Positions 3,017 through 28,881 of a DNA stretch of 28,881 nucleotides are shown one piece after another (positions within the stretch are counted from its first letter, which is position 1; every line of letters begins with the position of its first letter). Location of the stretch: the IMG/VR virus record IMGVR_UViG_3300032322_002002, positions 1-28,881 of that record; one strand, 5' to 3'. The stretch is from a virus. The translations under genes and the position numbers were made by a program. The notes below the pieces were generated by a model. The model was not told where the DNA came from. It saw nothing but the letters and a program-made list of their open reading frames with translations, and ran no database searches.

Positions 3017-3339
3017 TGGCGTTAGGATATTATAACAGATACAATCTTTTTTACATAAATGGTGAACAAACTGTTGTTCCTTATGTTGCAATACCTACAA
3101 AACCTTCAGATAAAGTTTATGTTTATAAGGTTGGTGTGAGTAGATTAGATAAAGTTTCTCAAGAATATTATGGTACACCATTCTTTGGTTGGTTGATATT
3201 ACAGGCAAATCCGGAATATAGTGGTATGGAAAATAATATATTTGACGGTGCTGTATTGAATATTCCATATCCTTTAGTAACTTCATTACAAGATTATAAA
3301 TCGGCTGTAGAGGCTCACTTCTTCTATTATGGTAGGTAA
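3016..3339 (+). CDS. Baseplate wedge subunit, gp53-like
   Basis: This 107-residue protein matches the size and pattern of the compact gp53-type wedge protein with a LysM-like core. The segment RLDKVSQEYYGTPFFGWLIL followed by QANPEY and a late GAVLNIPYP strand is the recognisable signature: a helix ending in YYG, a W, then a residue ladder leading to an IP-x-P end. In T4 gp53 ties wedges together at the inner baseplate. The start ATG overlaps the preceding stop (TAATG), and the stop overlaps the start of the giant downstream gene by 11 bases, so the three are surely co-transcribed and probably translationally coupled. No signal peptide or membrane segment is visible. The identification rests on motif pattern and synteny, without a database search. 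Confidence 0.82.
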   Translation: MALGYYNRYNLFYINGEQTVVPYVAIPTKPSDKVYVYKVGVSRLDKVSQEYYGTPFFGWLILQANPEYSGMENNIFDGAVLNIPYPLVTSLQDYKSAVEAHFFYYGR

Positions 3340-6300: not shown

Positions 6301-9300
6301 TACTACACCAACAAATATTACAAACTTTAGTCAAATAGAATTTGATACCACAACCTCAATGTTGAATACACCATATTTTATTAATTCAATATTATATGGT
6401 GTTGAACAAGACCAATTAGGACAATCAAGTCCTTACAAACAAGCGGCTTACTTATTTTTAAATTCTCTACCGTTAGCAACACTTAGAGAAAGATATAAGA
6501 GTTACGTTGAACCTGGTACAACAATTTCATTAGATTACATATTTGCATCTTTCAAAAAGTTTGGTGCGGTTCATAGATTACCATACGTTTGGTTATTAAA
6601 ATATGGTTCACTTTGGCATAGGTACAAAACTCAAATACAACAAAGACAAGATATTTTAAGTCCAATTTGGGGTGATTTTGATTATGCTAGACAATATGAC
6701 CCAACATCAGGAACACCAAATACAAGTAAAACATATACCGTAGGTAATTTCTCTTACACACTACAAAAAGAAACTTTTGTAAATAATGTAAGAACTGTTG
6801 AGATGGATTTAGGTTTTTATCCTAAAACAGTTAATAGTTTTAATTATTTCTTGAATGGTAGAAACCTATTCACAAATTATAGTGACGGTGAAATAACCCA
6901 AGCCATCAACAACGGTATGAAGGTTGTAAACTTGGCGGATTCAAACATTACAACAACAACTTTGGATAGTACAGGATTATCAACAACAATTGACATTAGT
7001 ACTTATTCAGTTGTAATACCTGATACAATACCTGAGTCAAATCCAAATATTACCAGTTGTTCTTTAAATGCAACAACACCACAAACAAATTATTATATCT
7101 TACCATCATTTGGTTCACAACAAAATGAAATTAGATTTAAATGTTTCAATTCAGTTGGTACATTAACAGAACCTTTATACAATAATAGTTCTATCTTTAA
7201 TGGTTCTGTTAGAACTTTTTGGTCTTTACCTAACTACGGATACTTTGATACTACGAACATTGTTAGACCAAGTATTGAAAGTTATTTTACGACTAAAAAT
7301 ACTTTAGGTGCATCGGCATTTAAATTTTCAAATACTAATGATTATGCCGAATTTGAGGAGGTCTTTACTGTTTTTGAGAAAAGTGTATTGGACTTAATGG
7401 AAAGTGAGTTTTTAAACTTTTCACAACCATCTTCAAAATTCACAAATACATTTATCACGGCTTCAAGTAACAATATTGGACTTGAAACGTTTGGTGTTGA
7501 AAATACTCAAAACGATAAATTCAGAAATTTCCAATTATTATTTAGGGATTTGATGAGTGTACCATTACCAAAGTCTACAGGACAACAAATGATATTGGAT
7601 ATGGTGGATTCTCAATATAGTTTGGGTATGTCAAAAATTCAAAACTTAATGAATTATAATGTTGCATTAAAACTTGGAAATCCTACAAACTATGATAAAA
7701 GAGTTTGGTTATCTTACATTCAACACATTACAAATGCACCCCAACTTACGGAACCAATTCAATGGCAACCCTATCAGGTATTGACTCTGTCAACACCAAA
7801 TTTCCTTAATACAACTGAAACCGCACTAATTTATTTTGGTAATTCAACCATTCCACAGGCTGACATTGGGACTGTGGGTAATTACATTTTCCAATTCTTT
7901 GAAGAGTCAAACATTGCGTTAAACTCACAAAACATTGCCGAGTTAAATACACTTGCTAAAATGTACACAACCCAAAAATTAGAGGATAGTACATTAACTG
8001 TTCAACAATTCGCAGGACAAATAAATTCTTGGGTTAATGAACGCACTGCGTTCTTCAATGATACTTTAAACTTAACCGACACAAAAATTAAAAAACCTGA
8101 CACAGGATTACCTGATGTAACTGAAATCCCTGAAGGTATTATTCAATCACAGTGGGAGGGAAGTCAAACAAAGGTTGAACTATATGAAATGTTCAAGGCT
8201 TTGAATGATAAGTGGATTGCCGGTTACGATGATTCAAGAACTTTATTTGAAGATGTATTGTTCTTAGATAGGGCATCAAGAAATGTTGGTGATAAAGTTA
8301 TTATTGATATTTTTGCACTACAACAAATGGTTGACCCTGAATTTATGAATTTGAAGATGAGTGTCTTCACATTTATCAGTGGAATATTAACACAAAACCA
8401 TTTTTCGGTTATGCCGGTTCCTGCGTATGTTAATTTCTATAACGTACAAAACTCGCCAGCACCATTACCGGTTACAGTCCAACCATCACAAGAGTTTGCC
8501 AATGAAATGTGGGGAACCTACATGACAGTTGATACTAGAAAATCGGGACCAAAACTTGTTTGTTTCTATACGGATAGACCATCTTCATATTTGGATATGA
8601 AAGATAATAAAAACTATTTGTTTAGAAGTGACTCGTTTGATTTGAGAAACGAACAACTTAATCCATTCTATGAGGATTTTGGTACAAAAACTGATTATGC
8701 GTTGTCTAACAGGGTTGTAGGATTCAACGTTGATATTGGAACTCGTAATCAAAATATATTTTATTCTTTCTCAATTACTCAAGATAGTGGAAAGGCGACT
8801 TCAGAATCAATACAACAAATTAATTTGATGGCAAACAGTGCCACAGGTAGAAGTACCGCAACACAAAATGTTTCTTTGTATAACATATACAAAAACATGA
8901 GTTATGAGTGTGAAGTTGTTGCGTTAGGTAATGCGTTACTCCAACCAACAATGTATTTTAACTTGAGACACGTACCATTGTTTAACGGTTCGTACATGAT
9001 TACCGAGGTAAAACATTCAATACAACCTGGACAATTCCAAACTACATTCAAAGGTATAAGACAAAGTTATATGTCATTACCAAGAATTGACGTTTATCTT
9101 CAAAGTATTAAAACAAATTTAGTTTCTAAGTTATTACAACAATACAGAAATACTAAAGACAATCCATTACAAACGGCGTCTACAACAACACAAGCGAACA
9201 ATGCCAACCAAACCGTCCAAACAAACAACCAATTGGCGGCACAAAATTCTTGTACATCAAAAGTATCGTTCCCATATTTGGAGGCGGAGTTTGGTTTCCA

Positions 9301-10498
9301 ATCAGTTGCTGGAAGAACATTTATTTATACACCACAACAATTCTATGATGAAATTAGAAAAGTGGAACAAAGACCTGAAGTTGTTTTTGGTATATTTGTT
9401 ATCTCTTGGATGTCATCAGGTATTGAAAATAAATTCAAAGGTTACGATTATAACTTTGGTAAAGTCACTTTAACAAGTGATTACGGACCATTGGGTGATA
9501 AGTACTTTACTAACACATATACTTGTCAATCCGCAACAACTGAAAAAAATAGTAACGTAACATTACCCTATGTTAGTTTTGTAACTATTGGTGATTATAT
9601 CTTATTTGTAAGAGATAAGATTCTCCCAAGTATCCAAAGAATTAAGAGTGTTGGTATGATACAATACTACTTACAAAACTGGCCTTATGATAAACAAGTT
9701 ACTGAAACACAAAACATTACTTTAAGTGCTTCATATGCCAAGGCGGTAGATTTACTAAACAACGTAACACCTCCAATTAAAACAATTCAATTACCTCCAA
9801 GACCAGTACCAAACCCAACAACAAACCTTGGTAATGTTGTTACGGCAACACCACCATGTCCAACACCTTCAGTTTCAACAGTATTTGTTCAAGGTCAAGG
9901 ACCAGGTACTGGTAACATACCACCAACCCCAACACCAAGTACATCAAGTCTTTCACCAATAACAACTGACGATGTTATATTGGCAAACGCGTTAACATTA
10001 AACCAATATGACTTGTCGGTAAATTATGTATCACAAGTAGATAACAGATTGACAGGTGTGTTAAATGTGTTCTCAGGACAACTTGTAAACAGTTACCCTG
10101 TTACATTGGTTATCAATCAAGATAATTTGATACAATCTGTACCTGTTGCTGATTTTGAAATATCAGGAAACACATTATCAAACAACTCGGATGGAAGTTT
10201 TGTATCTCAAAATAGTTGGAACGTTGCCTTGGATAGAATAACTGAAAATGGTGATTACTATGTTGATTTTGTCGCAACTGTTAGAACACCAGCAAGACTT
10301 TATAGGTTCACAACAACTTTAGGTATCTTACCACTTGATTGTCCTAATTTGGGTTACAAAGCTAATGATATTGTATCGGTAAGTATATTGGATTCAATAC
10401 TTAATAATTTCTGTTGTAGTTGTTATCCGAGTGGAAGTGGAACTAGAATAGTTTCCTTTAATGGGGTCCAATGTAAACAGATAGGTTCAAATTGTTAA
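3329..10498 (+). CDS. Giant baseplate hub-like protein (2389 residues) with lysozyme-like module
   Basis: The protein occupies the T4 gene 5 position, directly after the gp53-like gene. Residues about 165-250 (motif LPYPVFYLTMKGYYGQAI) look like the conserved N-terminal domain of a baseplate hub family. Residues about 1805-1915 (GNALLQPTMYFNLRHVPLF, then YMITEVKHSI) resemble the last barrel of gp27/gpD-type hub proteins, in which a ligand-independent beta barrel contacts the tail tube. Residues about 1975-2120 resemble a glucosaminidase or lysozyme-like fold (GYDYNFGKVTL, then YVSFVTIGDYILFVRDKI), but the usual ESG at the catalytic position reads SSG (2029-2031). A Pro/Thr-rich linker (about 2148-2214) leads to a C-terminal beta domain with six cysteines in the last 52 residues. 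It is several times longer than T4 gp27 or gp5, so it may fuse hub, linker and cell-wall-acting parts. The hub role is likely; enzymatic activity is uncertain. Confidence 0.65.
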   Translation: MVGNGLSDNSGNIFVEAAYNNVILVDPNKTWRIASNGQQVVEERLVDHENLVMYANLEAEILPRTKLALGATPQDNIRTVSLAKINFLRPNDEDFLNTGYYDDLTGLGSTEKKARLQRYEDLVDTTDGKKFYKQRFQTNLAGTVDPGLLGITSIEARTNLSFIPEVTIRLEDVQGRALFELGDQSPYAAFFNLPYPVFYLTMKGYYGQAIRYQLNLHKFSADFNSMSGNYMVTLQFFGYKYNILNEIAMGHLVAVPHMYETAFNFSKTIGGETTLYGTSETQVINTAQNIPSSTQLDSTISIDTIDARGLQKINEVYSEYVAKQLIPADFPRYTVAQLQYKLMKLEQTILDVYKDKADLQPLTDAEDYRKALLGYYEKVRGSKTSWFAEYMSQNPYYLINSDNRVYTFKQNEISFIKRGESKLKSLVLEGNTALDENATFGSIRGTANYKITNQISYNTFTIFQPLDIDWRRTFIAQTGIVNPTAVQISQFQASEILKWGVRGEVTQQGIKEVKLPFFTFDGPGRFESLIKDMEGQLNTKQNSIELEISEKLQKTISSPTTGIGFVPSVRNVLAVIMASTEAFIRLMNDVHSKAWDVRRDPVRRNVILNSSITAPNPDNKFNVQYGTNVNQQVADNTELDVYPWPQVFVENTDPEKAKYELAYPGDPSIANLTKGYLYDKWPEVEFLEEYLKGVTQKYQPPISTPPQDNENSLTRRININAVLFPYSNLAFQNKNQIKYLYEMYERQSIYSYYTNFGRLINSPEKSDIINLVGTTEARNIVQSLGVSNPYLIQTLKNTPLNSTTFPEVLRNSSLDGQGRLWQTYIRGDFTTDYLRNSVDHPNGILPIDIFNVGTQNDSINNPDLSALASLSVYVDEPQLQTLQGMLSSTITNTPQVTDLYPYTNETWDTNNLVGFQLVSGPENVFNTTRTYKFYNPTKTITNFTDPVDYTQIRPVTSFNYIETQKPDYTSGLVQLYGNRTLLLPTEGIVSNTTPTNITNFSQIEFDTTTSMLNTPYFINSILYGVEQDQLGQSSPYKQAAYLFLNSLPLATLRERYKSYVEPGTTISLDYIFASFKKFGAVHRLPYVWLLKYGSLWHRYKTQIQQRQDILSPIWGDFDYARQYDPTSGTPNTSKTYTVGNFSYTLQKETFVNNVRTVEMDLGFYPKTVNSFNYFLNGRNLFTNYSDGEITQAINNGMKVVNLADSNITTTTLDSTGLSTTIDISTYSVVIPDTIPESNPNITSCSLNATTPQTNYYILPSFGSQQNEIRFKCFNSVGTLTEPLYNNSSIFNGSVRTFWSLPNYGYFDTTNIVRPSIESYFTTKNTLGASAFKFSNTNDYAEFEEVFTVFEKSVLDLMESEFLNFSQPSSKFTNTFITASSNNIGLETFGVENTQNDKFRNFQLLFRDLMSVPLPKSTGQQMILDMVDSQYSLGMSKIQNLMNYNVALKLGNPTNYDKRVWLSYIQHITNAPQLTEPIQWQPYQVLTLSTPNFLNTTETALIYFGNSTIPQADIGTVGNYIFQFFEESNIALNSQNIAELNTLAKMYTTQKLEDSTLTVQQFAGQINSWVNERTAFFNDTLNLTDTKIKKPDTGLPDVTEIPEGIIQSQWEGSQTKVELYEMFKALNDKWIAGYDDSRTLFEDVLFLDRASRNVGDKVIIDIFALQQMVDPEFMNLKMSVFTFISGILTQNHFSVMPVPAYVNFYNVQNSPAPLPVTVQPSQEFANEMWGTYMTVDTRKSGPKLVCFYTDRPSSYLDMKDNKNYLFRSDSFDLRNEQLNPFYEDFGTKTDYALSNRVVGFNVDIGTRNQNIFYSFSITQDSGKATSESIQQINLMANSATGRSTATQNVSLYNIYKNMSYECEVVALGNALLQPTMYFNLRHVPLFNGSYMITEVKHSIQPGQFQTTFKGIRQSYMSLPRIDVYLQSIKTNLVSKLLQQYRNTKDNPLQTASTTTQANNANQTVQTNNQLAAQNSCTSKVSFPYLEAEFGFQSVAGRTFIYTPQQFYDEIRKVEQRPEVVFGIFVISWMSSGIENKFKGYDYNFGKVTLTSDYGPLGDKYFTNTYTCQSATTEKNSNVTLPYVSFVTIGDYILFVRDKILPSIQRIKSVGMIQYYLQNWPYDKQVTETQNITLSASYAKAVDLLNNVTPPIKTIQLPPRPVPNPTTNLGNVVTATPPCPTPSVSTVFVQGQGPGTGNIPPTPTPSTSSLSPITTDDVILANALTLNQYDLSVNYVSQVDNRLTGVLNVFSGQLVNSYPVTLVINQDNLIQSVPVADFEISGNTLSNNSDGSFVSQNSWNVALDRITENGDYYVDFVATVRTPARLYRFTTTLGILPLDCPNLGYKANDIVSVSILDSILNNFCCSCYPSGSGTRIVSFNGVQCKQIGSNC

Positions 10499-16584: not shown

Positions 16585-17865
16585 ATGGATAATTCTAATG
16601 AATTAACTCAAGTTGAAACACAATATGTGATTAAAAGAAGTGGTGATAAAGTACCATTTGAATCGGACAAAATCCAAAATGCTATCTTAAAGGCAATGAT
16701 GGGTATTAACAAAGTTGATGCTGAAATGGCTGAAAAAATAGCAAGATTAACCAAGAAAAGTATTTTCAGAAATGATAAGACTCGTGTACCTCATGTAGAT
16801 GAGATTCACGATATGGTTGAGAATAAATTAATGGATAATGGATTGAATGATGTTGCTAAAGAGTATATCATTTACCGTTCAAAACACAGACCAAATATCT
16901 TCAATAAGAGAGTTAACTTGAAACCCTATGAGTATCCTGATTTGCTTCAATACGTTGATGCAATTCGTCACTCTTATTGGGTTCACACAGAGTTTAACTT
17001 CACTTCTGACATTCAAGACTTCAAGGTCCATTTGAATGAAAAGGAAAAGTCCGCGGTACAAAGAGCTATGTTGGCTATTTCACAAATTGAAATCGCAGTT
17101 AAAACTTTTTGGGGTGACATTTATAAGAAGTTACCAAAACCTGAAATTGGTAGTGTTGGGGCAACGTTTGCGGAATCAGAGGTAAGACACGCAGATGCTT
17201 ACTCAAACCTAATCCAAGTACTTGGACTTAACAAAGAATTTGAAAACCTACTTGAGGTACCTGCAATTCGTAGAAGAATTAAGTACTTGGAGAAATCTAT
17301 CTCAAATTCAAAGGCAATTGAAAACCAAGATTACTTTGAGTCCGTTATATTGTTTTCAATGTTTGTGGAAAACGTATCGTTGTTCTCACAGTTTTTAGTT
17401 ATTATGTCATTCAATAAGTTTAAGAACGTATTGAAAGGTACAAGTAACGCAGTTGAGGCAACTTCTAAAGAAGAAAACATTCACGCAGAATTCGGATTTG
17501 ATTTGGTTAATCTAATCAAAAAAGAAAATCCAAGTTGGTGGACACCTGAATTAGTTCAAGATTTAATCAACGCTACTATTGATGCTTACGAAGCTGAGAC
17601 TGATATTGTTGAGTGGATTTTTGAGAAGGGTGATTTAGATTTCCTAACTAAGGAACAAACATTGGAGTTTATCAAACATAGATTTAACATTTCATTAAAC
17701 GCTATTGGTATTGATAAAGTATTTGATGTAAACCCTATTATATTGGAAACAACCGAATGGTTTGATGACGAAATTTTAACAACAAAACACACAGACTTTT
17801 TTAACAAACGTAGTATAAACTACAGTAAAAAATCAAAGTCTATTACTTTAAACGATTTATTTTAA
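16585..17865 (+). CDS. nrdB: Class I ribonucleotide reductase small subunit with N-terminal ATP-cone
   Basis: The 426-residue radical-generating subunit is longer than the usual NrdB because residues about 13-105 form an ATP-cone (VIKRSGDKVPFESDKI, then AKEYIIYRSKHR), normally the activity-control domain of NrdA. The diiron/dimanganese-type site is complete: Glu169, Glu199 and His202 (EVRH), Glu262 (FVEN), Glu297 and His300 (ENIH). Tyr206 sits four residues after His202, the position of the radical tyrosine in E. coli NrdB. The C-terminal tail (TLNDLF) is the peptide that binds the large subunit. A 23-base gap separates it from NrdA, which lacks the cone, so the pair must be regulated through this subunit. 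No Shine-Dalgarno sequence is present. The fold call is certain; the metal type and whether a tyrosyl radical is used cannot be told from sequence. Confidence 0.97.
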   Translation: MDNSNELTQVETQYVIKRSGDKVPFESDKIQNAILKAMMGINKVDAEMAEKIARLTKKSIFRNDKTRVPHVDEIHDMVENKLMDNGLNDVAKEYIIYRSKHRPNIFNKRVNLKPYEYPDLLQYVDAIRHSYWVHTEFNFTSDIQDFKVHLNEKEKSAVQRAMLAISQIEIAVKTFWGDIYKKLPKPEIGSVGATFAESEVRHADAYSNLIQVLGLNKEFENLLEVPAIRRRIKYLEKSISNSKAIENQDYFESVILFSMFVENVSLFSQFLVIMSFNKFKNVLKGTSNAVEATSKEENIHAEFGFDLVNLIKKENPSWWTPELVQDLINATIDAYEAETDIVEWIFEKGDLDFLTKEQTLEFIKHRFNISLNAIGIDKVFDVNPIILETTEWFDDEILTTKHTDFFNKRSINYSKKSKSITLNDLF

Positions 17866-17866
17866 C

Positions 17867-17874
17867 TATATTTG
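17867..17874 (+). promoter_or_regulatory. Possible -7 element (TATATTTG) before nrdA
   Basis: TATATTTG fits the Bacteroidota -7 pattern TAnnTTTG and lies 14 bases before the nrdA ATG, in the gap after nrdB. No TTTG is found 19-21 bases upstream, so the -33 half is missing and this may be chance in AT-rich sequence. If real it would give extra transcription of the large subunit. Confidence 0.28.
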
Positions 17875-17888
17875 CAGTAATAATTATT

Positions 17889-19595
17889 ATGGAAAATAGA
17901 AAACCTTTTGATTGGATTAATGACGAATCCATAACATTTCTTCGTAGAGGATATCTCAGCGAAGGAGAAGAACCACTTGAACGAATTCGTGTAATTGCGA
18001 ACCATGCTGAAAAATTATTGGGTAAGGCTGGTTTTGCAGACAAGTTCTACGATTACATGAGTAAAGGATGGTATTCACTATCTTCACCTGTTTGGGCAAA
18101 CTTTGGTAAGAAGAGAGGATTACCTGTTAGTTGTTTTGGTTCAAATATTGGAGACAACATTGAATCAATTCTTTACACTCAGGCTGAAGTTGGTGAGATG
18201 AGTAAGATGGGTGGAGGTACCTCAGGTTATTTTGGTAATATTAGAGGTAGAGGTGCGGAAATCACCGACAACGGACATGCACCCGGAGCAGTTCACTTTA
18301 TGAACTTGTTCCAAAGTGTTGTTGATAATATTTCTCAAGGTTCAACACGTAGAGGTAGATTCTCACCTTATCTACCAATTGAACACCCTGACATCATGGA
18401 GTTCTTAGAAATTGGAACTGAAGGGTTCCCCATCCAAGATTTGACTCACGCAGTTACTGTAACTGATGAATTCATGGAATCCATGGTTAACGGTGACCCT
18501 GATAAGAGAGCGGTGTGGGCTAAGGTTATTCAAAGAAGAGGTGAGATTGGATATCCGTACATTATGTTCACAGATACTATGAACAATAAGGCTCCTGAAG
18601 TATACCGAGAAAAAGGTATGAAAATTTATAACTCTAACTTATGTTCTGAAATTGCATTACATAATTCAGAGGAAGAGTCCTTCGTTTGTGTATTGTCTTC
18701 AATGAATGTTTTACACTATGATGAGTGGAAAGATACAGATGCGGTTGAGACTATGGTTCATTTCCTTGATGCAGTTGTAACTGAGTTTATCAGTAAGATT
18801 GATGACATTAGAACTAACGGTACCGTTGAAGGTCAAAGAGCATTCTTCTATCTTGAAAAGGCGTACAACTTCGCTAAAAGACAAAGAGCTCTTGGTTTGG
18901 GAGTATTGGGTTGGCACTCACTACTACAATCTAAAGGATTACCTTTTGACAGTAAGGCGGCGGCAAAATTGAATGTTGAGGTATTCAAATTGATTAAGGA
19001 TAAGTCATACAAGGCTTCAGAAGAATTGGCTCAAGTTTTTGGTGAACCTGAAACACTTGTTGGTTATGGTAGAAGAAATGTCACTTTGAATGCAATTGCT
19101 CCAACAACATCTTCAGCATTTATCTTGGGTCAAGTGTCTCAGTCAATTGAACCTATTTGGTCTAACTGTTATGTTAAGGATGTGGCAAAGATGAAAGTAA
19201 CAATCAAAAATCCTGTTCTTAAGAAAGTATTAGTTGACATGGGTAAAGATGATAAATCTACTTGGGATAGTATTAAGAAGTATGATGGTTCTGTTCAACA
19301 CTTGGATTTCTTAACAGATGAACAAAAAGATGTTTTTAGAACCTTTGCAGAAATCAACCAAGCTTCTATCATCAACCAAGCGGCGGTAAGACAAGATTAC
19401 ATTGACCAAGCTCAATCTTTGAACTTGATGATTTCACCTGACATGCCAACAAGGGACGTTAACAAACTTCTAATTGACGCATGGCAACTTGGAGTTAAAA
19501 CTCTGTATTACCAACACTCTATGAACTCAGCACAGGCTTTCGCAAGGAAGAAGTTAAATCTAAATGATTTACAATGTGTGGCTTGTGAGTCATAA
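17889..19595 (+). CDS. nrdA: Class I ribonucleotide reductase large subunit lacking the ATP-cone
   Basis: The 568-residue catalytic subunit reduces ribonucleoside diphosphates to deoxy forms. All key residues are visible: Cys82 (LPVSCFG), the Asn250/Cys252/Glu254 active site (NSNLCSE), Cys267 (FVCVLSS) as partner of Cys82, the radical-transfer Tyr pair 540-541 (TLYYQHS), and the C-terminal redox pair Cys563/Cys566 (QCVACES). The sequence begins directly with the ten-stranded barrel domain (DWINDESITFLRRGYL) and has no N-terminal ATP-cone, which explains why it is about 190 residues shorter than E. coli NrdA. The cone is found on the neighbouring NrdB. A terminator follows 18 bases after the stop. 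No glutaredoxin or thioredoxin gene is seen nearby, so reduction likely relies on a host protein or one encoded elsewhere. Confidence 0.97.
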   Translation: MENRKPFDWINDESITFLRRGYLSEGEEPLERIRVIANHAEKLLGKAGFADKFYDYMSKGWYSLSSPVWANFGKKRGLPVSCFGSNIGDNIESILYTQAEVGEMSKMGGGTSGYFGNIRGRGAEITDNGHAPGAVHFMNLFQSVVDNISQGSTRRGRFSPYLPIEHPDIMEFLEIGTEGFPIQDLTHAVTVTDEFMESMVNGDPDKRAVWAKVIQRRGEIGYPYIMFTDTMNNKAPEVYREKGMKIYNSNLCSEIALHNSEEESFVCVLSSMNVLHYDEWKDTDAVETMVHFLDAVVTEFISKIDDIRTNGTVEGQRAFFYLEKAYNFAKRQRALGLGVLGWHSLLQSKGLPFDSKAAAKLNVEVFKLIKDKSYKASEELAQVFGEPETLVGYGRRNVTLNAIAPTTSSAFILGQVSQSIEPIWSNCYVKDVAKMKVTIKNPVLKKVLVDMGKDDKSTWDSIKKYDGSVQHLDFLTDEQKDVFRTFAEINQASIINQAAVRQDYIDQAQSLNLMISPDMPTRDVNKLLIDAWQLGVKTLYYQHSMNSAQAFARKKLNLNDLQCVACES

Positions 19596-19679: not shown

Positions 19680-20150
19680 ATGGCTGAAGGTATTACATAT
19701 GGTTTAGAATTTCCTTTTGTGGATTCAACACAAGGGGATTATTTAGCCCTAACGGAAACTCAGTTTCAACAAATAAGAAGTGACTTATTACATCTGATTC
19801 TCACAAGAAGAGGTTCAAGATACTTTTTACCAACGTTTGGTACAAGGTTATATGAATATATCTTTGAACCTTATGATGGTCTTACTTTTGATGCAATAGA
19901 AGCGGATATTAGGGATTCTGTCCAAACTTTCATGCCAAATCTTTTACTTAATAAAATTACAATTGAACCTGCAGACCCGTCTGAAGAGGTTCCGTTGGCT
20001 AAAGGAACTACAATACCAGGAACGGCGAGAGAGTATGTTTATAGAGTTCCCGGTAAAGGAACATCTGAATATACCGCAAAAGTAAAGATTGACTACACAG
20101 TTGACAATTTAGCGTTTGCACAAAGTGATTTCGTTATTATCAATATTTAA
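19680..20150 (+). CDS. Baseplate wedge protein, gp25-like
   Basis: The 156-residue protein has the gpW/gp25 core at about residues 15-95: LTETQFQQIRSDLLHLILTR, a GSRYFLPTFGTRLYEYIFEP segment, and the D-AIEADIRDSVQTFMP helix. Family members sit at the base of the sheath and start sheath polymerisation in phages, type VI secretion systems and related contractile machines. The Leu/Ile helix followed by RRG-R-FLP-FG and the E-P motif in the middle are the family hallmarks. The C-terminal 60 residues carry extra beta strands. It opens the second baseplate unit, seven bases before the gp6-like gene, and follows a terminator with candidate late elements. All eight arginine codons are AGA/AGG. Confidence 0.92.
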   Translation: MAEGITYGLEFPFVDSTQGDYLALTETQFQQIRSDLLHLILTRRGSRYFLPTFGTRLYEYIFEPYDGLTFDAIEADIRDSVQTFMPNLLLNKITIEPADPSEEVPLAKGTTIPGTAREYVYRVPGKGTSEYTAKVKIDYTVDNLAFAQSDFVIINI

Positions 20151-20157
20151 ACAATAG

Positions 20158-21996
20158 ATGGCAAACAATAGAATTTCATATACAGTACGAGATTATGAAG
20201 GAATTCGTATAGAGTTACAAAACTATGTCCGTACATATTATCCTGAACTAATTCAGGACTTCAACGACGCGTCAGTGTTCTCGGTATTCTTGGATTTGAA
20301 TGCTGCGGTTGCGGACAACCTACACTATCACATTGATAGAAGTATTCAAGAGACTGTATTACAATATGCTCAACAAAGGTCATCAATTTATAATATAGCC
20401 AGAACATACGGTCTTAAAATACCTGGTCAAAGACCTTCAGTATCTTTAGTTGATTTCTCAATTACTGTACCGGCTTTTGGTGATAAAGAAGATGAAAGAT
20501 ACTTGGGTATTCTAAACAGAGGTTCTCAAATATTTGGTGCGGGTATTGTCTTTGAAAACCAATACGACATTGATTTCTCATCACCATACAATTATGCCGG
20601 TTTCCCAAACAGATTAAAGATTCCGAATTTTGATGCCGCGGGTAACTTAGTTAACTACACAATCACAAAAAGAGAACTTGTTGTAAACGGTATTACCAAA
20701 GTTTACAAAAGAGTTATCACACCTGCCGATGTAAAACCATTCTTTGAATTGTTCTTACCCGATAAGAACGTTCTTGGTATTACAAGTGTATTATTAAAAA
20801 ACGGAACAAACTACACTAACGTTCCTACCGCTGCGGAATTTTTAGGTTTGGAAAACAGATGGTTTGAGGTAGATGCCTTGGCGGAGGATAGAATCTTCAT
20901 TGAAGACCCTACCAAAGTGTCTGACCAACCCGGTATCAAAGTAGGTAGATACATTCAAACAAATAGTAGATTCATATCTGAGTTTACACCTGAAGGGTTT
21001 AATAAACTAACTTTCGGTGGGGGTACTTCCTCAGCTCAAGACCAATTGAATACTTTTACCAATTTAGGTTTCCCAATCACAATTCAGAACATTACCAATA
21101 ACTTTTCATTAGGTTCAACTTTGACACCAAACGCAACGTTATTTGTTCAATACAGAGTTGGTGGTGGATTGGGCACCAACTTGGGGACGAATGTTATTAA
21201 CCAAGTGGGAACGGTATCCTTCTTTGTGAATGGTCCATCACAAACAATTAATAGTTCGGTAATCAATTCATTGAGATGTACCAACGTTACTGCGGCTATC
21301 GGTGGTTCAAACGCTCCAAATACTGAAGAAGTTAGAAACTATGTAGCATTTAACTTTGCGGCTCAGAACAGAGCCGTTACCGTTAATGACTATGACTCTT
21401 TATTGAGAAACATGCCAGCTGAATTCGGAGCACCTGCAAAAGTGGCAATCACAGAAAACAACAACAAAATTGTCATCTCAATGTTATCTTATGATACGTC
21501 AGGTAAATTAACTAGTATTGTGTCAAATACATTGAAACAAAACGTTGCAAATTACTTGTCAAATTATAGAATGATGAACGACTATATTCAGGTAACAACC
21601 GCAGAGGTTTTAGACTTGGGTGTGGAGATTTCAGTTGTATTAGATGCAACACAAAACTCAGGACAAATTATTAGTGATATTGTTAATAGAATTTCAGCAT
21701 ATTTTGACCCCCAATTCAGGCAGTTAGGTCAGAACGTTTATTTGTCAGAACTTAGAAGTATTGTTCAAAGTCAAAATGGTGTAATTACCGTATCGGATAT
21801 TGTAATTGATAATAAAGTGGGGGGACAATATTCTTCGGCTGAAACATCAATGGCATACTCAGACCCTGAGTTAAGAATTATCAGACCGGTTGACGATACT
21901 TTGTTTGCACAACCTAACCAAGTTTATCAGGTTAGATACCCACAGAAAGATATTAAGGTGAGAGTAAGAAACTTACAGAATGTTTCTTTCTCGTAA
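20158..21996 (+). CDS. Baseplate wedge protein, gp6-like (J family)
   Basis: The 612-residue protein forms the ring-linking wedge component of contractile baseplates. The N-terminus (YTVRDYEGIRIELQNYV, then PELIQDFNDASVFSVFLDL and DNLHYHIDRSIQET) is the gp6 and gpJ pattern: a helical entry, the F-D-S segment and the D-N-L-Y-DR helix. The later part around residues 390-420 (NTEEVRNYVAFNFAAQNRAV, then VNDYDSLL) is the gpJ-type core. The end around residues 515-545 (QNVYLSELRSIVQSQNGV) is the conserved C-terminal helix and turn before a final strand. It follows the gp25-like gene by seven bases, as in many phages. T4 gp6 is 660 residues, so the size is ordinary. Confidence in the family is high; no search was run. 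Confidence 0.9.
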   Translation: MANNRISYTVRDYEGIRIELQNYVRTYYPELIQDFNDASVFSVFLDLNAAVADNLHYHIDRSIQETVLQYAQQRSSIYNIARTYGLKIPGQRPSVSLVDFSITVPAFGDKEDERYLGILNRGSQIFGAGIVFENQYDIDFSSPYNYAGFPNRLKIPNFDAAGNLVNYTITKRELVVNGITKVYKRVITPADVKPFFELFLPDKNVLGITSVLLKNGTNYTNVPTAAEFLGLENRWFEVDALAEDRIFIEDPTKVSDQPGIKVGRYIQTNSRFISEFTPEGFNKLTFGGGTSSAQDQLNTFTNLGFPITIQNITNNFSLGSTLTPNATLFVQYRVGGGLGTNLGTNVINQVGTVSFFVNGPSQTINSSVINSLRCTNVTAAIGGSNAPNTEEVRNYVAFNFAAQNRAVTVNDYDSLLRNMPAEFGAPAKVAITENNNKIVISMLSYDTSGKLTSIVSNTLKQNVANYLSNYRMMNDYIQVTTAEVLDLGVEISVVLDATQNSGQIISDIVNRISAYFDPQFRQLGQNVYLSELRSIVQSQNGVITVSDIVIDNKVGGQYSSAETSMAYSDPELRIIRPVDDTLFAQPNQVYQVRYPQKDIKVRVRNLQNVSFS

Positions 21997-22088
21997 CACC
22001 TTTATTTAATCACACCTTAAGGTATATTTTTAGATTAAGAGGTTTTTCTCAAAAAAACCCTAATAACTATTTATCATAAAAGCCTTAA
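21997..22088. other. Structured intergenic region between gp6-like and 1730-residue genes
   Basis: The 92-base gap contains a perfect 10-base palindrome (ACCTTAAGGT, 22014-22023) framed by TTAATC (22006-22011) and GATTAA (22033-22038), which could pair. A second hairpin has arms GGTTTTT and AAAAACC (about 22041-22059). Neither is followed by a good T tract, so termination is doubtful. A candidate late element ends 10 bases before the next ATG. Confidence 0.5.
22068..22078 (+). promoter_or_regulatory. Candidate late promoter motif TATTTATCATA
   Basis: This variant of the 11-base element lies 10 bases upstream of the ATG of the 1730-residue gene. It differs from the 19641 copy at positions 8 and 10. 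Position and recurrence are the only evidence. Confidence 0.38.
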
Positions 22089-25000
22089 ATGGGAAAATCA
22101 TATAGGATAAAAACTGACGTAGGTGTAGACAAAAATATTTCGTTTCAATTAGAGCAAGATTTTGAATTTTTAGAAATCCTTTCTCTTCAAATTTCTCAGA
22201 ATGATGTTTACACAAGAAACTGTGCGGACTACGGTGTTGTAGTTGGTAGGGTTATTGCCAACGGTGGATTGGGTATTCCAAACGTGAAGGTTTCAATTTT
22301 TGTACCTATCACTGAAACCGATGCACTTAACGAACAAATTGTTGCTCTTTATCCTTATGTTCAACCAAACGATAGAGATACCAATGGTATTAGATATAAC
22401 TTATTACCAAGTGAACAATCCTACGCAAAACATGCTGTAGTTGGTACTTTCCCAACAAGAGAAGAGGTTTTAAAAGACCCAACCTTGGTTGCGGTTTACG
22501 ACCGTTATTACAAGTATACTGTTAAGACCAACGAGAGTGGTGACTACATGATTTTTGGTGTTCCATTGGGACAACAAACCATGGTAATGGATTTGGACTT
22601 GAGTGATATTGGTGAGTTTTCACTAACCCCTCAGGATTTGATTCGTATGGGTAGAGCAACTGAAGCTCAAGTTGCGGGTGACAGATTCCAAACATCAACC
22701 AACTTGGAGAGTTTACCACAGATTGTATCTATTACCAAGACCTTTGAAGTAAATCCATTTTGGGGTGACCCAAGTTTGTGTCAAGCCGAGGTAAATCGTG
22801 TTGATTTTGATTTACGTGAAGAAGCCAATATTGATATTGAACCAACTGCGATATTCATGGGTTCAATGTTTTCAAGTCCTGATGAGTTTAGAATCGGGGC
22901 ACCATCCACAAGAACCGATGGACCTCCAAGTGTATTAGGTAGGGGATGTAAACCAAAAGACAATACAGGTAGTTTGTGTCAGAATATCCCTGGTCCTGGT
23001 CAGGTGTTAGCCGTTAGACAAACAATTAATCAGGATGCTGAAGGTAGACCCATCTTGGAAGAATATAGATTGGAGAACTCAGGTAATGTAATTGACGGGG
23101 ACGGTACGTGGGTTGTTGAAGTTCCAATGAACTTGGATTATGTAACAACATCTGAAGACGGAACAAGAATATTTTCAAGAGACCCGTCTGTGGGTATTCC
23201 AACAAAAGGAAAATACAGATTCAAAATCAAATGGCAACAATCTCCAAACTCTGTTGAACAAATTAGAAGACCATATTACTTGGTTCCAAACATCAGAGAA
23301 TATGGTTGGCAAATATCATCGGTTGACCCGATTTATGGTGCAAACCCATTATTGTTAAAAGATTTAAAAAGTTCGTATTATTTTGGTTTGGATTGGTCGG
23401 GATATACCGATGCAAGCACCACTTCAATTGAGAACGAAAAATTAAATAATGCCATTAATTGTCTTGATACTTTCTATGAGTTTCAATACAACAAAGTTTT
23501 CACCGTATCAAGTTTAATTGACCAGTATAAAAGGGGGGATGGTAGAAGTAAGTTTATTGGTGTAAAAGATATTGCTGACAATCAGTGTACAAACACAACA
23601 AATAATTTTCCTGTCAACGAGGCGGTTAAGAATTTTGATTTATTATATTTTTTATTTTCAATTGTATTTCAAATATTCCAAACCATATTTCCACCAATTC
23701 TTGTAATATATCACATCATTGCATTTTTGTGGAATAATTTTGCAGTTGTGATTGCGGCGGCTTTGATTGGATTATTAAGTTTCTTAACCTATGCGTTCTT
23801 TACTGCGGCATTTATATTCCCACCACCATCGTTAGTTTTCCTTGGATTGGGTGCGATAACTTTATCGTTGACGATAAAACTTACAACTAGTTTCAGAAGG
23901 ATTACTAAATTTAAATTTGGTGCGTTTAATTTACCTATGATAACATATCCTGAATGTCAGGGTTGTGATTGTAAACCTGGTGACAGTATTGCTGGTGACA
24001 GCGAAGACGGTGGTACATCTTTGTTAACACCTTTGGCAAATCCGGCACTTTATTATGAAAATATTTCTGAGGGTTATTTGAGATTTAGTGAAGTTGAAAG
24101 TGGTGATGATAAGGGAACAATATCAGAAGATAATATTGCGGTTCAATCTTTAGTTTTATCACAAGCGGTTGGTTCAAGAATTTATAGAAACCAAAAATTA
24201 GGAATTTATAAGTCTACGGAATCTGAAGAGTTAAGATTACCCGATGCTGATAATGATAAGTATTTTGCATATGGAACATCATTACCGATGGCTCAGAGAG
24301 TCAACCAATTCAATAGCAGGAAAAAATACTTTGACGGACTCAATAGAATTTCCGTTAGTTTTGATAATCCATCAAACGCAACGGTAAAACACTTTGATAA
24401 TACTTTAACAATAATGTCTCAATCTTCGTTCCCTTCAGGAACATTGTTGACATTCGTTAATCCTGAGAATTCTTCGGACAATAACTATAAGTTCAGTTCT
24501 AACACTCAATCAGAGACAGGTATTAGTGGAACTACTTTACAGGCGGGTCCAGGACCTATAACGGTAAGATATGCGACATCTCAAACTAATGACACAACAC
24601 AGACGTATAATTTAAGTTCAGGTTCAACAGAAACGAATTATAATTTCCCTGCGGATATTGAATACTATCAAGTTGTAACGGCAATTACCGTTTCTGATGC
24701 GTTTAATTTAATAGCACAACCGGGATGTTCGTCATGTAGAAAATATGTAATAAAGTGTGACGACTCAACGGTAGGTCAATTATTTGCCTATTTCTCATAT
24801 CAAGCTTGTGACGGAACAACTCAATATGTTAATTTAACAAACGTATATGATAATACATCTCAAGATTGGGTAGGTGAAACTTTAGAGGTTTGTGCCTGCG
24901 CAACACCAACACTTGATAGTGGTGACGGTAGTGTAACATTTGTAGGTCCTACATGCCAACTTCAACCAACTTTAAATTCGTTTCTTAAATTAATAAATTC

Positions 25001-27281
25001 TTCGGTAAGTGTTACTTATGCGAGAAAGCAAGGATTAACTTGGGATAAGTATGGTACCTCATATCAACCGAGACAAATGTTTGAAGGTTATGATAGCCAA
25101 TATATTTTAATCCTTCAAAGAGGTGTTGACCCTTACTCGCCTTTGTATACAAACAAGTATGGTATTGGTAAAATTCTTGGACTTGCAAACGAAGATGATG
25201 TTATAGTTACAACTAAATCAAGAATCAACATTCCAATTCAAAAATTGACAGAAACTGATATGTCGGTTCAGAATCACAATGTTCAATCAAACATATTTTA
25301 TGCAAGTAATTTCTTCAGAGCCGGTAACGGTTTTTCCGCATTTACAACGTCAAATGTTGGTTATTATAGTGGATTGGACGCAAACACCGAATGGAAAAAT
25401 TTTGTGAATAGTGGTGGTAGAACGTTAAAAAGTTATGGTGTTGACGATTACTTTAATTACCCAACAAATAGTGGTGTTGTATTAACAACAAGTAAAAATA
25501 AAAACGACTTTTTTGATACTCAAGTTGATGATGGTAAATATGATTCTGTTGAAGATGTTTCAGGTTTAGATTTTTATTGGTTAAAGACAACAGGTCAAGG
25601 TAAAAAACCTTCACAAGTTGACAGTGAATATATTTCAGTTTCTTTGTTACCACAATTTGAATCAACACCTCTTACAATTTCTAATAAAATTTTGAATGTG
25701 ATGAGAACTGACAGACTACCATCTTCAGACTTCTTAGAGGGTAAAAATTGGGATGGTATTGTTCCTGTCTTACAACAAAATTTAGGTTTTACAATTTACG
25801 AAATTACAACACAATATCAGGAAGATTTCACAACAGTTGCTTATGGTACAGGTGCTGACATTGTTACACCTGATATTAGTGATTTACCCGGTAGTTTAAA
25901 TGTGTTGGAAACTTTCTCATGTTCAAACATGGTAAGTATTGATTGTTATAGTGGTGATGGTAAAACATTTGGTGTTAAAACTGACTGTCAAAATAACGAT
26001 ATTGTCTATGATGGTTGTTATAGGTTTATGACAAAACCTTTAGTTTCATTACCTAAAGATTTACTTGGATTTACAGAATATGGTGTTAGATATAAGTTTT
26101 TCTACGCGTTGTGTAGAGGTGTGTTATCTCAGACGTTTACAAACAACTGGATAAATGGTACTCTATACACACCACCAATCCAAACAAGAACTGTTTATGA
26201 TGGTCAGAATAGACCTGTCAGAACAACATACTGTAAAGAGTTTGTTTATTTTAACGATGATAGTAACAACTTCTACATGAGAAGTAGTCCATATAATCCA
26301 TCAAGTCCTAAAGGTTTTATTGGAAAAAGACAAACACCTTCGGCGGGTAAGATTAATGACTTGAATTTATTGTACCCAACAACAATTATGAACTTGGGAC
26401 CTAAGAGTGACATATATTCTGAAATTTCGTTAGACCCTACATATAAAGGTTTCGTTATGAATAAACTCACACCAACAAGTTATGGTGATACATCTGATAT
26501 TTTAACCTTTTTTGTTATTTCAAGAATCACTAATAATGCTTTTGTAAGACTATTGGGGAATTTGAACTTTGGAATTTATGGTTCAAGCGTAATTAATATT
26601 CTCTTCTCAAGACCTGAATTCAGAGCTGATGGTGATGTGGTACAATTGTTATCAATTAATTCTGAAAATGGTGTTGTTAAATTCTCGGCAGATGCTTATG
26701 AGTCTTTTGGTGGAACGGATGACCCCGTTCAATTATTAGGAAATAATATAAGTGGACCTGTTATGGGTATTTTCTTCTCTTCAACTACAGAAGACCTACA
26801 GTTTAAGGATTTCTTAACACCTGGTAAAATTGATTTTAGACCAAATCCTGCATCATCTGCAATACAATATAGTTACGGTATTAAATCTCAAGAAGTACCT
26901 TTCTATCAGTGGGAACAAAACCCTCCAAGAAATCCTTTGAGAAGATTTCCTTTCCAAAGACTAACTAATCCAACAATATTTGGTGGTGAACAAAATAATT
27001 GGGGAACAGAAACAAATGATATTTTCTCAAGAAAGTATCAGGTTTTGGATAGAACAAATGTTGTGTCACCTACATACTTTATCGGTTCAAATACTCAAGG
27101 TGATGATAGAAGAGCAAGAGGTTACATTTACATGCAAGATAACAACGGTGTGATTACACCAAATGTTGGTAATTGGAACAATAAATTCTTAGTAGGTGCA
27201 CCATTCCATTTTTATTTTGGATTAAAAACAGGTCTAACCGCACTTGATAAATTTAAACAAAAGTATTTAAGTGATGAGTGA
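22089..27281 (+). CDS. Large baseplate wedge-like protein (1730 residues) with a long hydrophobic segment
   Basis: It sits directly after the gp6-like gene, the position of T4 gene 7 (1032 residues), but I see no gp7 signature, so this is a positional inference. Residues about 50-190 look like a carboxypeptidase-regulatory or similar beta-sandwich domain (GRVIANGGLGIPNVKVSIF, then NESGDYMIFGVPLGQ). Residues 518-598 form an almost uncharged stretch rich in Phe, Ile, Leu and Ala (about 80 residues, with FPP and FPPPS turns), sufficient for three or more membrane-crossing segments. A CQGCDC cluster follows at 623-628. Residues about 880-960 carry a second set of cysteines in a beta-rich domain (GCSSCRK, then EVCACATP). 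The C-terminal half is beta-rich with many Asn, Thr, Tyr and Gly. Its stop overlaps the next start by eight bases. Confidence 0.65.
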   Translation: MGKSYRIKTDVGVDKNISFQLEQDFEFLEILSLQISQNDVYTRNCADYGVVVGRVIANGGLGIPNVKVSIFVPITETDALNEQIVALYPYVQPNDRDTNGIRYNLLPSEQSYAKHAVVGTFPTREEVLKDPTLVAVYDRYYKYTVKTNESGDYMIFGVPLGQQTMVMDLDLSDIGEFSLTPQDLIRMGRATEAQVAGDRFQTSTNLESLPQIVSITKTFEVNPFWGDPSLCQAEVNRVDFDLREEANIDIEPTAIFMGSMFSSPDEFRIGAPSTRTDGPPSVLGRGCKPKDNTGSLCQNIPGPGQVLAVRQTINQDAEGRPILEEYRLENSGNVIDGDGTWVVEVPMNLDYVTTSEDGTRIFSRDPSVGIPTKGKYRFKIKWQQSPNSVEQIRRPYYLVPNIREYGWQISSVDPIYGANPLLLKDLKSSYYFGLDWSGYTDASTTSIENEKLNNAINCLDTFYEFQYNKVFTVSSLIDQYKRGDGRSKFIGVKDIADNQCTNTTNNFPVNEAVKNFDLLYFLFSIVFQIFQTIFPPILVIYHIIAFLWNNFAVVIAAALIGLLSFLTYAFFTAAFIFPPPSLVFLGLGAITLSLTIKLTTSFRRITKFKFGAFNLPMITYPECQGCDCKPGDSIAGDSEDGGTSLLTPLANPALYYENISEGYLRFSEVESGDDKGTISEDNIAVQSLVLSQAVGSRIYRNQKLGIYKSTESEELRLPDADNDKYFAYGTSLPMAQRVNQFNSRKKYFDGLNRISVSFDNPSNATVKHFDNTLTIMSQSSFPSGTLLTFVNPENSSDNNYKFSSNTQSETGISGTTLQAGPGPITVRYATSQTNDTTQTYNLSSGSTETNYNFPADIEYYQVVTAITVSDAFNLIAQPGCSSCRKYVIKCDDSTVGQLFAYFSYQACDGTTQYVNLTNVYDNTSQDWVGETLEVCACATPTLDSGDGSVTFVGPTCQLQPTLNSFLKLINSSVSVTYARKQGLTWDKYGTSYQPRQMFEGYDSQYILILQRGVDPYSPLYTNKYGIGKILGLANEDDVIVTTKSRINIPIQKLTETDMSVQNHNVQSNIFYASNFFRAGNGFSAFTTSNVGYYSGLDANTEWKNFVNSGGRTLKSYGVDDYFNYPTNSGVVLTTSKNKNDFFDTQVDDGKYDSVEDVSGLDFYWLKTTGQGKKPSQVDSEYISVSLLPQFESTPLTISNKILNVMRTDRLPSSDFLEGKNWDGIVPVLQQNLGFTIYEITTQYQEDFTTVAYGTGADIVTPDISDLPGSLNVLETFSCSNMVSIDCYSGDGKTFGVKTDCQNNDIVYDGCYRFMTKPLVSLPKDLLGFTEYGVRYKFFYALCRGVLSQTFTNNWINGTLYTPPIQTRTVYDGQNRPVRTTYCKEFVYFNDDSNNFYMRSSPYNPSSPKGFIGKRQTPSAGKINDLNLLYPTTIMNLGPKSDIYSEISLDPTYKGFVMNKLTPTSYGDTSDILTFFVISRITNNAFVRLLGNLNFGIYGSSVINILFSRPEFRADGDVVQLLSINSENGVVKFSADAYESFGGTDDPVQLLGNNISGPVMGIFFSSTTEDLQFKDFLTPGKIDFRPNPASSAIQYSYGIKSQEVPFYQWEQNPPRNPLRRFPFQRLTNPTIFGGEQNNWGTETNDIFSRKYQVLDRTNVVSPTYFIGSNTQGDDRRARGYIYMQDNNGVITPNVGNWNNKFLVGAPFHFYFGLKTGLTALDKFKQKYLSDE

Positions 27282-28881
27282 TTTTACAATTATACCTTCT
27301 AGACTTCAGTTTAAATCTGCACCTTCTATTGACCAACAGGTAAATCTTGAATTAAGTCAAACACAAGAGGAGTTAACGCAGTTTGTGAGAAACACCTCGT
27401 TAAACTTGTCACAATTATACGACGATGAGAGACAAACTTGTGAGGTGTTCAGACCAACATTCAAGTTACAATATTTATATGACAATACTTTGACAGGAAC
27501 TACAGAATATATTCCATTTCTTAATAATCTATATTATGTAAATCCTGAACAATCATCTGTTAGTAGTGTGTGGAGAGGTTACCCACAATATTATGAGTTT
27601 GATTTTTTCAGACCACGAATAACTGACTATCATTTTGATTACTCACCTGAGAGTGCATATACTTACAATTGGACTTACTATTTGACCTACCCATCAACTA
27701 ATGATGGTAGTGTTACAATGCAAGGTACCTATTCAGGACAAACTATTCAATGGAATGCTGAAGAAGGTATTCCATTTATAATATCATCATCTTCAGAGGG
27801 TGGTTTTAATATTATTTCTTTTCAGTGTTTAATGTCACATGGACTAGTACCATTTGAATCCGTTGAATTATCTTTTGATTATGATGGTGATACAATATTT
27901 GAGGTATTATCATTGGGTAATGACAGATATGAAAGTTCTGATTTTGTATTCAATATTATAAATCCTGGTTACACTGGTAATACATTCTTTAATGGAAGAA
28001 TGGGGACTTTTAAAAGAGTTTCCAATCCATCAAATTTGGAAACAAGGTCAAAATATTATGTTAGAAAAAACAGAGTTTTATTTACACAGAACGAAGTTGA
28101 TGTAACCAAAACCGGTTTTGAACTTAACCCATTTAATAATCAGAAAAAATTAGAGTTCAGTTCTATTACACCAAATCAACAGACAAGAGTTTCAATGAAA
28201 ACATCATCAAATACTTACGATGTTACATTGAAAAAAGATATGATTCTTAGCGGGATTACAGACAACAGAAATCGTCCTGTTGGTGAGATATTCCTATCGG
28301 TTGTCAACAAAGGATATAGTGGATATTTTAACAAGTCATTCAATGGAGTAGGACTCAAAAAAGGTTGGGGATTTAATTTGACTAAAGACGTTAGTACTTG
28401 GTGGTCAGATAATAACCAATATTCTTTTACGAACATACCGGTTAATAGTTATACCAAAACTAGTGGAACGACTGAAACATTTTATTACAATCAAAATTTA
28501 AAAGTTGGTGATTTATTGGACGGTGATTTTTGTGAGTGGAATGATTATGAACAAGTTGAAAGAGTTATTTCACCGTTGATTCATAAAATTAAATTCAACC
28601 AAGATGTGTTTAAAACAGAATCAACTCCAAATCCAAATGCCATGGGTTATTATTATGTACCTCATGTTCCATTAACCTTGAGAGTTTTTTCTGATTACGT
28701 TGAAACCGCACCACAGAACAATTCTGAAAACGTTCCAAGTTATGCGTTTTATTCTACTATAGACCAAGAGTTTAGATGGAGGGAGCCTTATTTATATGGT
28801 GAGTTTGATAATTTAGATAGGGGTGTAAACTATCCTTATTTGAATAGAGCTCATTATCCTTACAGAGATTATGTGTTTAGA
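27274..28881 (+). CDS. Large unknown structural protein (3' partial, at least 536 residues)
   Basis: The frame opens with ATG at 27274, overlapping the preceding stop by eight bases (GATGAGTGA), and runs without a stop to the right edge, so the C-terminus is missing. It begins MSDFTIIPSRLQFKSAPS and continues with a helical stretch (LSQTQEELTQFVRNTSLNL). A beta-rich body follows with high Tyr, Asn, Phe and Ser, no membrane segment and few cysteines. The end contains a Tyr/Pro-rich part (RGVNYPYLNRAHYPYRDY). Composition and overlap with the upstream gene point to a baseplate or tail structural protein. T4 synteny would put a gp8-like protein here, but T4 gp8 is 334 residues and I see no diagnostic motif, so the function stays unknown. 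Confidence 0.8.
   Translation, partial: MSDFTIIPSRLQFKSAPSIDQQVNLELSQTQEELTQFVRNTSLNLSQLYDDERQTCEVFRPTFKLQYLYDNTLTGTTEYIPFLNNLYYVNPEQSSVSSVWRGYPQYYEFDFFRPRITDYHFDYSPESAYTYNWTYYLTYPSTNDGSVTMQGTYSGQTIQWNAEEGIPFIISSSSEGGFNIISFQCLMSHGLVPFESVELSFDYDGDTIFEVLSLGNDRYESSDFVFNIINPGYTGNTFFNGRMGTFKRVSNPSNLETRSKYYVRKNRVLFTQNEVDVTKTGFELNPFNNQKKLEFSSITPNQQTRVSMKTSSNTYDVTLKKDMILSGITDNRNRPVGEIFLSVVNKGYSGYFNKSFNGVGLKKGWGFNLTKDVSTWWSDNNQYSFTNIPVNSYTKTSGTTETFYYNQNLKVGDLLDGDFCEWNDYEQVERVISPLIHKIKFNQDVFKTESTPNPNAMGYYYVPHVPLTLRVFSDYVETAPQNNSENVPSYAFYSTIDQEFRWREPYLYGEFDNLDRGVNYPYLNRAHYPYRDYVFR

Follow-up and report, generated by a model that had tools for sequence, protein, structure and literature searches.

A conserved apolar, possibly membrane-active segment in a large protein encoded in a phage baseplate gene cluster

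In the contractile injection system of Anabaena, the component Cis13 anchors the particle through a predicted transmembrane helix, and truncation of this component frees the particle (PMC8894136). Transmembrane helices are also predicted in the tape measure proteins of diffocin (CD1366), TP901-1 and the cyanophage Pam3, for which a role in DNA entry has been proposed (PMC10996793, PMC5099701). Transmembrane regions of tape measures have been proposed to form pores, and the tape measure proteins of T4 and T5 have little or no transmembrane region (PMC10996793). For the hydrophobic regions of the TP901-1 tape measure, the recruitment of chaperones or a role in assembly was judged likelier than membrane insertion (PMC5099701), which counts against a membrane-acting reading of the segment described in the present work.

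The T4 baseplate provides a further point of comparison. The structural wedge subunit gp7, for which several structures have been solved, contains an apolar run of 25 residues (FVHPVGFGFIAITLLTMFINVGLTL, residues 882-906) that lies between its Pfam domains V and VI and has a Kyte-Doolittle (KD) value over 19 residues (KD19) of 2.07 and a Wimley-White value of -10.2; the GenBank record of gp7 carries the annotation “C-terminus is predicted integral membrane domain”. A sequence-only reading of the present locus had contrasted it with T4 on the ground that T4 wedge proteins have no such region, and this was wrong. With such a run known from a wedge protein, hydrophobicity becomes a weaker argument for membrane insertion and does not prove it, and a buried oligomerisation helix becomes a serious rival explanation.

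The locus lies in a stretch of viral DNA of 28,881 nucleotides (the window), in which the following features surround the segment.

19680-20150, plus strand: gp25-like baseplate wedge or sheath initiator (PF04965, 7.1e-10; phrog_261, 1.6e-14)
20158-21996, plus strand: gp6/baseplate-J-like wedge protein (PF04865, 1.6e-6; phrog_219, 2.9e-22; synteny)
22089-27281, plus strand: 1730-residue protein with the apolar segment, in the baseplate cluster, no Pfam or PHROG family
22221-22868, plus strand: N-terminal prealbumin/CnaB/carboxypeptidase-regulatory-like beta-sandwich, residues 45-260 (AlphaFold2; VIA-align)
23586-23639, plus strand: N-side foot of the segment, with the invariant C500, FP507-508 and a conserved NFD ahead of the helix
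23640-23876, plus strand: uncharged apolar run of 79 residues, 518-596 (predicted helices 518-576 and 581-600)
23640-23735, plus strand: conserved polar-striped apolar helix, residues 518-549 (S524, Q528, Q531, H542, N549; periodicity 100-102 degrees, descriptive permutation p 0.0005)
23889-23933, plus strand: basic C-side foot, residues 601-615 (mean net charge +3.1 over residues 600-619, clade-wide)
23946-23972, plus strand: YPxCxxCxC cluster, residues 620-628, invariant in the clade of the window
26067-26168, plus strand: amphipathic helix leading into the NNWINGTLY block (the FYNDW block in distant relatives), the C-terminal core of the family
27271-28881, plus strand: next gene of the cassette (563 residues in L003), ended by the window edge, beta-rich by inspection, no family match

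The description of the 1730-residue product as a protein in baseplate position is upheld by the placement of its gene in the wedge cluster, with gp25-gp6 always upstream. In all complete loci that were examined the gp6 gene lies directly 5'; the very distant relatives L159 and L160 retain both gp25 and gp6 ahead of the segment gene, and L161 retains gp6 there. In 13 homologous contigs the order of gp25, gp6, the segment gene and a gene of about 560-600 residues, followed by genes of about 270, about 360-390, 302 and about 990 residues, is constant to the contig ends. The isolate neighbours immuto, Mel-JY01 and LR756508 share gp6, and the stretch examined in them contains no homologue of the 1730-residue protein. 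Farther 5' in the window are genes for an SSB, a UvsX-like recombinase, a DnaB-like helicase and the subunits of a ribonucleotide reductase. The reductase genes (window 16585-19595) encode 426 and 568 residues, as against 315 and 806/810 residues in contigs such as L032 and L079, with only about 23-25% identity; since the reductase types differ at the same place in related contigs, the locus has been swapped. An ORF of 2389 residues upstream of the replication genes (window 3329-10498) matches no Pfam or PHROG family.

A promoter-like sequence that is conserved in the clade, TAACTATTTAT, stands about 24 nt 5' of the ATG of the segment gene (window 22064-22074, plus strand). Across L001-L158 (2.0 Mb) the pattern AA[CG]TATTTAT occurs 203 times on the plus strand versus 3 times on the minus strand, mostly 23-28 nt before an ORF start, and 191 matches fall at most 60 nt upstream of an ORF. 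Of 73 members of the segment gene family, 72 have TATTTAT close to the start, as do 28 of 39 members of the family of the downstream gene of about 300 residues. The pattern looks like a late-promoter element.

The segment gene occupies the position of the gp7/gpI/TssG wedge subunit, directly downstream of gp6, and its product resembles T4 gp7 in being a large multidomain protein with one apolar run. Unlike T4 gp7, which matches the Pfam domains Gp7_helical, Gp7_5th and Gp7_6th, the window protein matches none of the three, and alignment of the family profile with T4 gp7 by hhalign gave a probability of 0.2 (E 0.35), which is no match. A better candidate for gp7 is a separate gene of 991 residues, five genes past the segment gene (L003:17716-20691), which is recognised by neither Pfam nor PHROGs. 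This gene aligns with immuto_161, a large gene of the Flavobacterium phage immuto, with an hhalign probability of 95.6 (E 1.2e-8), and carries the motif LFKSKGTRKSVEFLL, which occurs in immuto 161 as well and resembles T4 gp7 (gp7-type “KSKGT”); hhalign detected no match between T4 gp7 and the 991-residue gene itself. The match to immuto_161 and the shared motif suggest that the 991-residue gene probably encodes the gp7-type wedge subunit of this lineage. The identification of the 1730-residue protein as gp7 was dropped once this gene had been found, and because the gp7-type subunit is probably encoded separately, the 1730-residue protein would be an extra component between gp6 and gp7.

In the frame of the 1730-residue protein, window positions 23640-23882 encode residues 518-598, LLYFLFSIVFQIFQTIFPPILVIYHIIAFLWNNFAVVIAAALIGLLSFLTYAFFTAAFIFPPPSLVFLGLGAITLSLTIKL. 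In-frame translation confirms that this stretch contains one charged residue (K597) and one histidine (H542), with R, D and E absent, and its mean KD value is 1.76. The run free of K, R, D and E spans the 79 residues from 518 to 596 and is longer than the longest uncharged run in any of 2,000 shuffles of the 1730-residue protein (mean 30, maximum 68); the next-longest run elsewhere in the protein is 23 residues. The hydropathy of the segment passes the thresholds by which integral membrane proteins are predicted, with KD19 values of up to 2.37 and Wimley-White sums reaching -14.3, and the Wimley-White octanol threshold is exceeded by more than 10 kcal/mol in three well-separated 19-residue windows and by 6 in a fourth. 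The segment is preceded by C500 and followed by the cysteine cluster that had been noted from the sequence, C623-x2-C626-x-C628.

A survey of 323 relatives with an intact N-terminal domain, in which the criterion was a 19-residue window with a KD value above 1.6, located an apolar segment directly after this domain in 319, usually as one cluster that starts near residue 470-505. Three of the four relatives without the segment are ORFs of 403-498 residues that end ahead of it. In a homologue of 734 residues (L170:5944-8145) the apolar helix and the FYNDW block that follows it are genuinely lost, and the other listed ORFs of that locus contain no strong transmembrane-like segment; the lack of the segment in this homologue counts against a membrane role. 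In the clade of the window, KD19 is at least 2.01 in all 151 members bearing the flanking motif, and KD19 exceeds 2.0 in only 4 of 512 other ORFs of at least 500 residues in the same loci. As a feature of the family, the segment is real, conserved and specific.

Among sequence pairs with 45-65% identity in the N-terminal domain, pair identity is 59% in that domain, 33% in residues 518-549 and 14% in residues 550-600, while charged residues in the clade of the window make up 21.7%, 1.1% and 9.6% of the same regions, respectively. Taken together, these sequence comparisons indicate that apolarity rather than sequence is conserved in the segment, as is the case in membrane segments. Charged residues that were common in homologues had been named beforehand as an observation that would speak against insertion, and in this clade they are not common. 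Elsewhere in the family, lysine occurs in the polar stripe of many rumen relatives and the minimal homologue L161 has D, D and E in the second half of the helix, and both observations count against the membrane-acting reading. The insert between the fixed feet varies in length from 76 to 177 residues. C500, C623, C626 and C628 are each present in 152-155 of 158 sequences, and the cluster is absent from distant relatives.

The mean hydrophobicity of residues 518-548 has a periodicity with its maximum at 100-102 degrees per residue (permutation p 0.0005), and the same periodicity is found in an independent set without the cysteine cluster (0 of 2,000 permutations), in which one column is 97% Asn and another 96% Cys; these p-values are descriptive, since the region was picked after the sequences had been seen. 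The polar-striped helical periodicity is shared by two deeply separated clades. The surface of the helix is mostly apolar with one polar edge, formed in the window protein by S524, Q528, Q531, H542 and N549 and partly acidic in L161.

Structure prediction around the segment, which the sequence-only reading had called for, returned helices. The AlphaFold2 model of residues 1-690 of the window protein (74 sequences; mean pLDDT 72.9, pTM 0.54) contains a helix at 518-576 (block pLDDT 78-91) and another at 581-600, with feet at 503-515 and 618-625 whose pLDDT is below 50. The model of full-length L161 (69 sequences; mean pLDDT 80.3, pTM 0.82) contains a helix at 449-475 and then one at 494-509 that runs into the FYND block. 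The longer predicted helix of the window protein comprises 59 residues, which is far beyond the span of one bilayer and counts against the membrane-acting reading. Foldseek and VIA-align searches with both models retrieved mainly prealbumin, CnaB and pilin-type domains, and the transmembrane helices of ASIC1 appeared among the low-Z helix-pair matches (Z 4.8, 60 residues), a similarity too weak for use. Mean-field direct coupling analysis of helix-domain packing (322 sequences, Neff 100) reflected chiefly the clade signal (column 329) and was uninformative. The four cysteines might form a single zinc site, an idea to be read with the pLDDT of below 50 at the feet.

These observations permit more than one explanation of the segment, of which the following is preferred, at a probability of roughly 0.45: the 1730-residue protein is a peripheral component of the baseplate (tail tip) whose conserved segment acts on membranes as a helix or a helical hairpin. 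The protein would then be present in the virion, and in the unfired baseplate its helices would be packed together or shielded. On contraction they would enter the host envelope, the outer membrane first, where they might hold the baseplate in place or help to open the membrane; within the membrane their polar stripes would face each other and their apolar faces would point towards the lipid. This reading is favoured because apolarity is conserved without sequence, because the length of the segment varies, and because Cis13 and the tape measure regions provide precedents. Further points in its favour are the length of the uncharged run, the rarity of comparably apolar ORFs in the same loci, the place of the segment between two conserved domains, the long predicted helices, the polar stripe shared by two clades and the fixed position of the gene next to gp25-gp6.

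If the segment is instead a buried structural helix, it would be an oligomerisation or packing element that is sealed in the assembled baseplate, against its own copies or an adjacent subunit, and has no contact with lipid at any stage. This is a real possibility, if a somewhat weaker one, and it remains in close contention because of the T4 gp7 case, in which a wedge protein of solved structure has an apolar run, because a polar stripe with a 3.5-3.6-residue repeat also suits the polar layers of a helical bundle, and because of the acidic residues in L161. It is made harder to accept by the length of the window segment, which is three times that of the apolar run in T4 gp7, by the fall of pair identity to 14% together with the wide spread in length, an unusual combination where protein surfaces pack tightly against each other, and by the apolar arc that makes up most of the helix surface.

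The charges at the two feet bear on a different explanation, in which the segment is an inner-membrane hairpin of the infected cell with both large domains in the cytoplasm, so that the protein either serves as a platform for baseplate assembly or acts without entering the virion. The basic charge of the C-side foot is as the positive-inside rule predicts if that foot is cytoplasmic, and a co-translational route to the membrane would be expected for so hydrophobic a segment. The N-side foot, however, has no net charge, both terminal parts of the protein are beta-sandwich-like and have pilin- or adhesin-type folds, and the position of the gene between gp6 and further tail-type genes is fixed; the latter two properties are more typical of virion surface proteins, and the explanation is unlikely. 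It is highly improbable that the segment is an exposed apolar signal by which a chaperone or partner is brought in while the tail assembles: TP901-1 offers a precedent in its tape measure (PMC5099701), but such a signal does not need a 30-residue polar-striped helix or invariant cysteines at both feet, and no chaperone gene was identified adjoining the segment gene. Both of these last two explanations are less likely than membrane action or burial.

The suggestion that the segment may be a “fusion or channel element” belongs to the sequence-only reading, of which one part stands: the segment is real, near-universal and selected for apolarity, and its gene lies in the wedge cluster. The contrast with T4 does not stand, and the argument from hydrophobicity is weaker without it. 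A strong form of the suggestion, in which contraction would cause the polar-striped helices of a dedicated protein family in an uncultured jumbo-phage lineage to oligomerise as a pore or anchor within the host envelope, with the four cysteines (perhaps a metal site) clamping the feet in the clade of the window, is doubtful; if it were true, the membrane-inserting device would be located in the baseplate rather than in the tape measure.

The family is widespread. Five overlapping scans of viral contigs confirmed 138, at least 576, 10, 166 and 337 related stretches, several of them on contigs of 340-413 kb; the members on such contigs that were reached with a rumen Bacteroidales query are L173, L180, L195, L196, L231 and L248. 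The same query had no match among 50,697 phage records, and tblastn against isolate phages found no match with the window protein, L160 or L161 as query. A search of 84,980 bacterial and archaeal genomes yielded matches on three contigs only, which come from a Bacteroidales MAG, a Bacteroidota MAG and a Prochlorococcus single-cell genome, and since these are mostly from Bacteroidota, a Bacteroidota host is likely. The Prochlorococcus contig (83.8 kb) carries L159 and L251, which belong to a branch of cyanophages or else to a virus that was sorted together with the cell. Searches of Pfam, PHROGs and PDB sequences with the window protein and distant homologues gave no useful match, and Pfam yielded no family for the window protein at E values up to 0.1. 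The sole homologue found in a named database is A0A8S5LA66, an uncharacterised protein of Myoviridae sp. ctPuP5 (38% identity, E 1.4e-41; Foldseek/BFVD). The carriers are a widespread lineage of uncultured contractile-tailed phages, probably with Bacteroidota hosts, and the family of the 1730-residue protein is a good marker gene for this abundant lineage, which has no match in the isolate collection searched.

For the question of how the DNA of large contractile phages passes both membranes of Gram-negative cells, the segment provides a concrete, mutable candidate for a membrane-acting part; alternatively, it is a clear example of a baseplate that hides an apolar stretch. The sandwich at residues 45-260 has a fold in common with carboxypeptidase-regulatory, CnaB and transthyretin-like domains (best VIA-align match 2nsm 320-398, Z 9.6, 79 residues, rmsd 2.1, a similarity of fold only), which is a common fold and is uninformative about the apolar segment. 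Tape measure proteins are long, helical and located inside the tube, whereas the gene of the window protein lies in the baseplate cluster and its modelled parts are beta-rich; beta structure predominates in the models of residues 1-690 and full-length L161, in place of the mostly helical coiled coil of a tape measure. Cis13 (All3316) is a tail-fibre-like, baseplate-attached component with a predicted transmembrane helix of about 33 residues that acts as a membrane anchor (PMC8894136); in the window protein, which may likewise be attached to a baseplate, an apolar helix is predicted by hydropathy and AlphaFold2. Cis13 differs in belonging to a bacterial injection system seated in the thylakoid of its own cell and in having its helix near the C-terminal end, whereas the window segment is up to 79 residues long and internal to a phage protein of 1730 residues.
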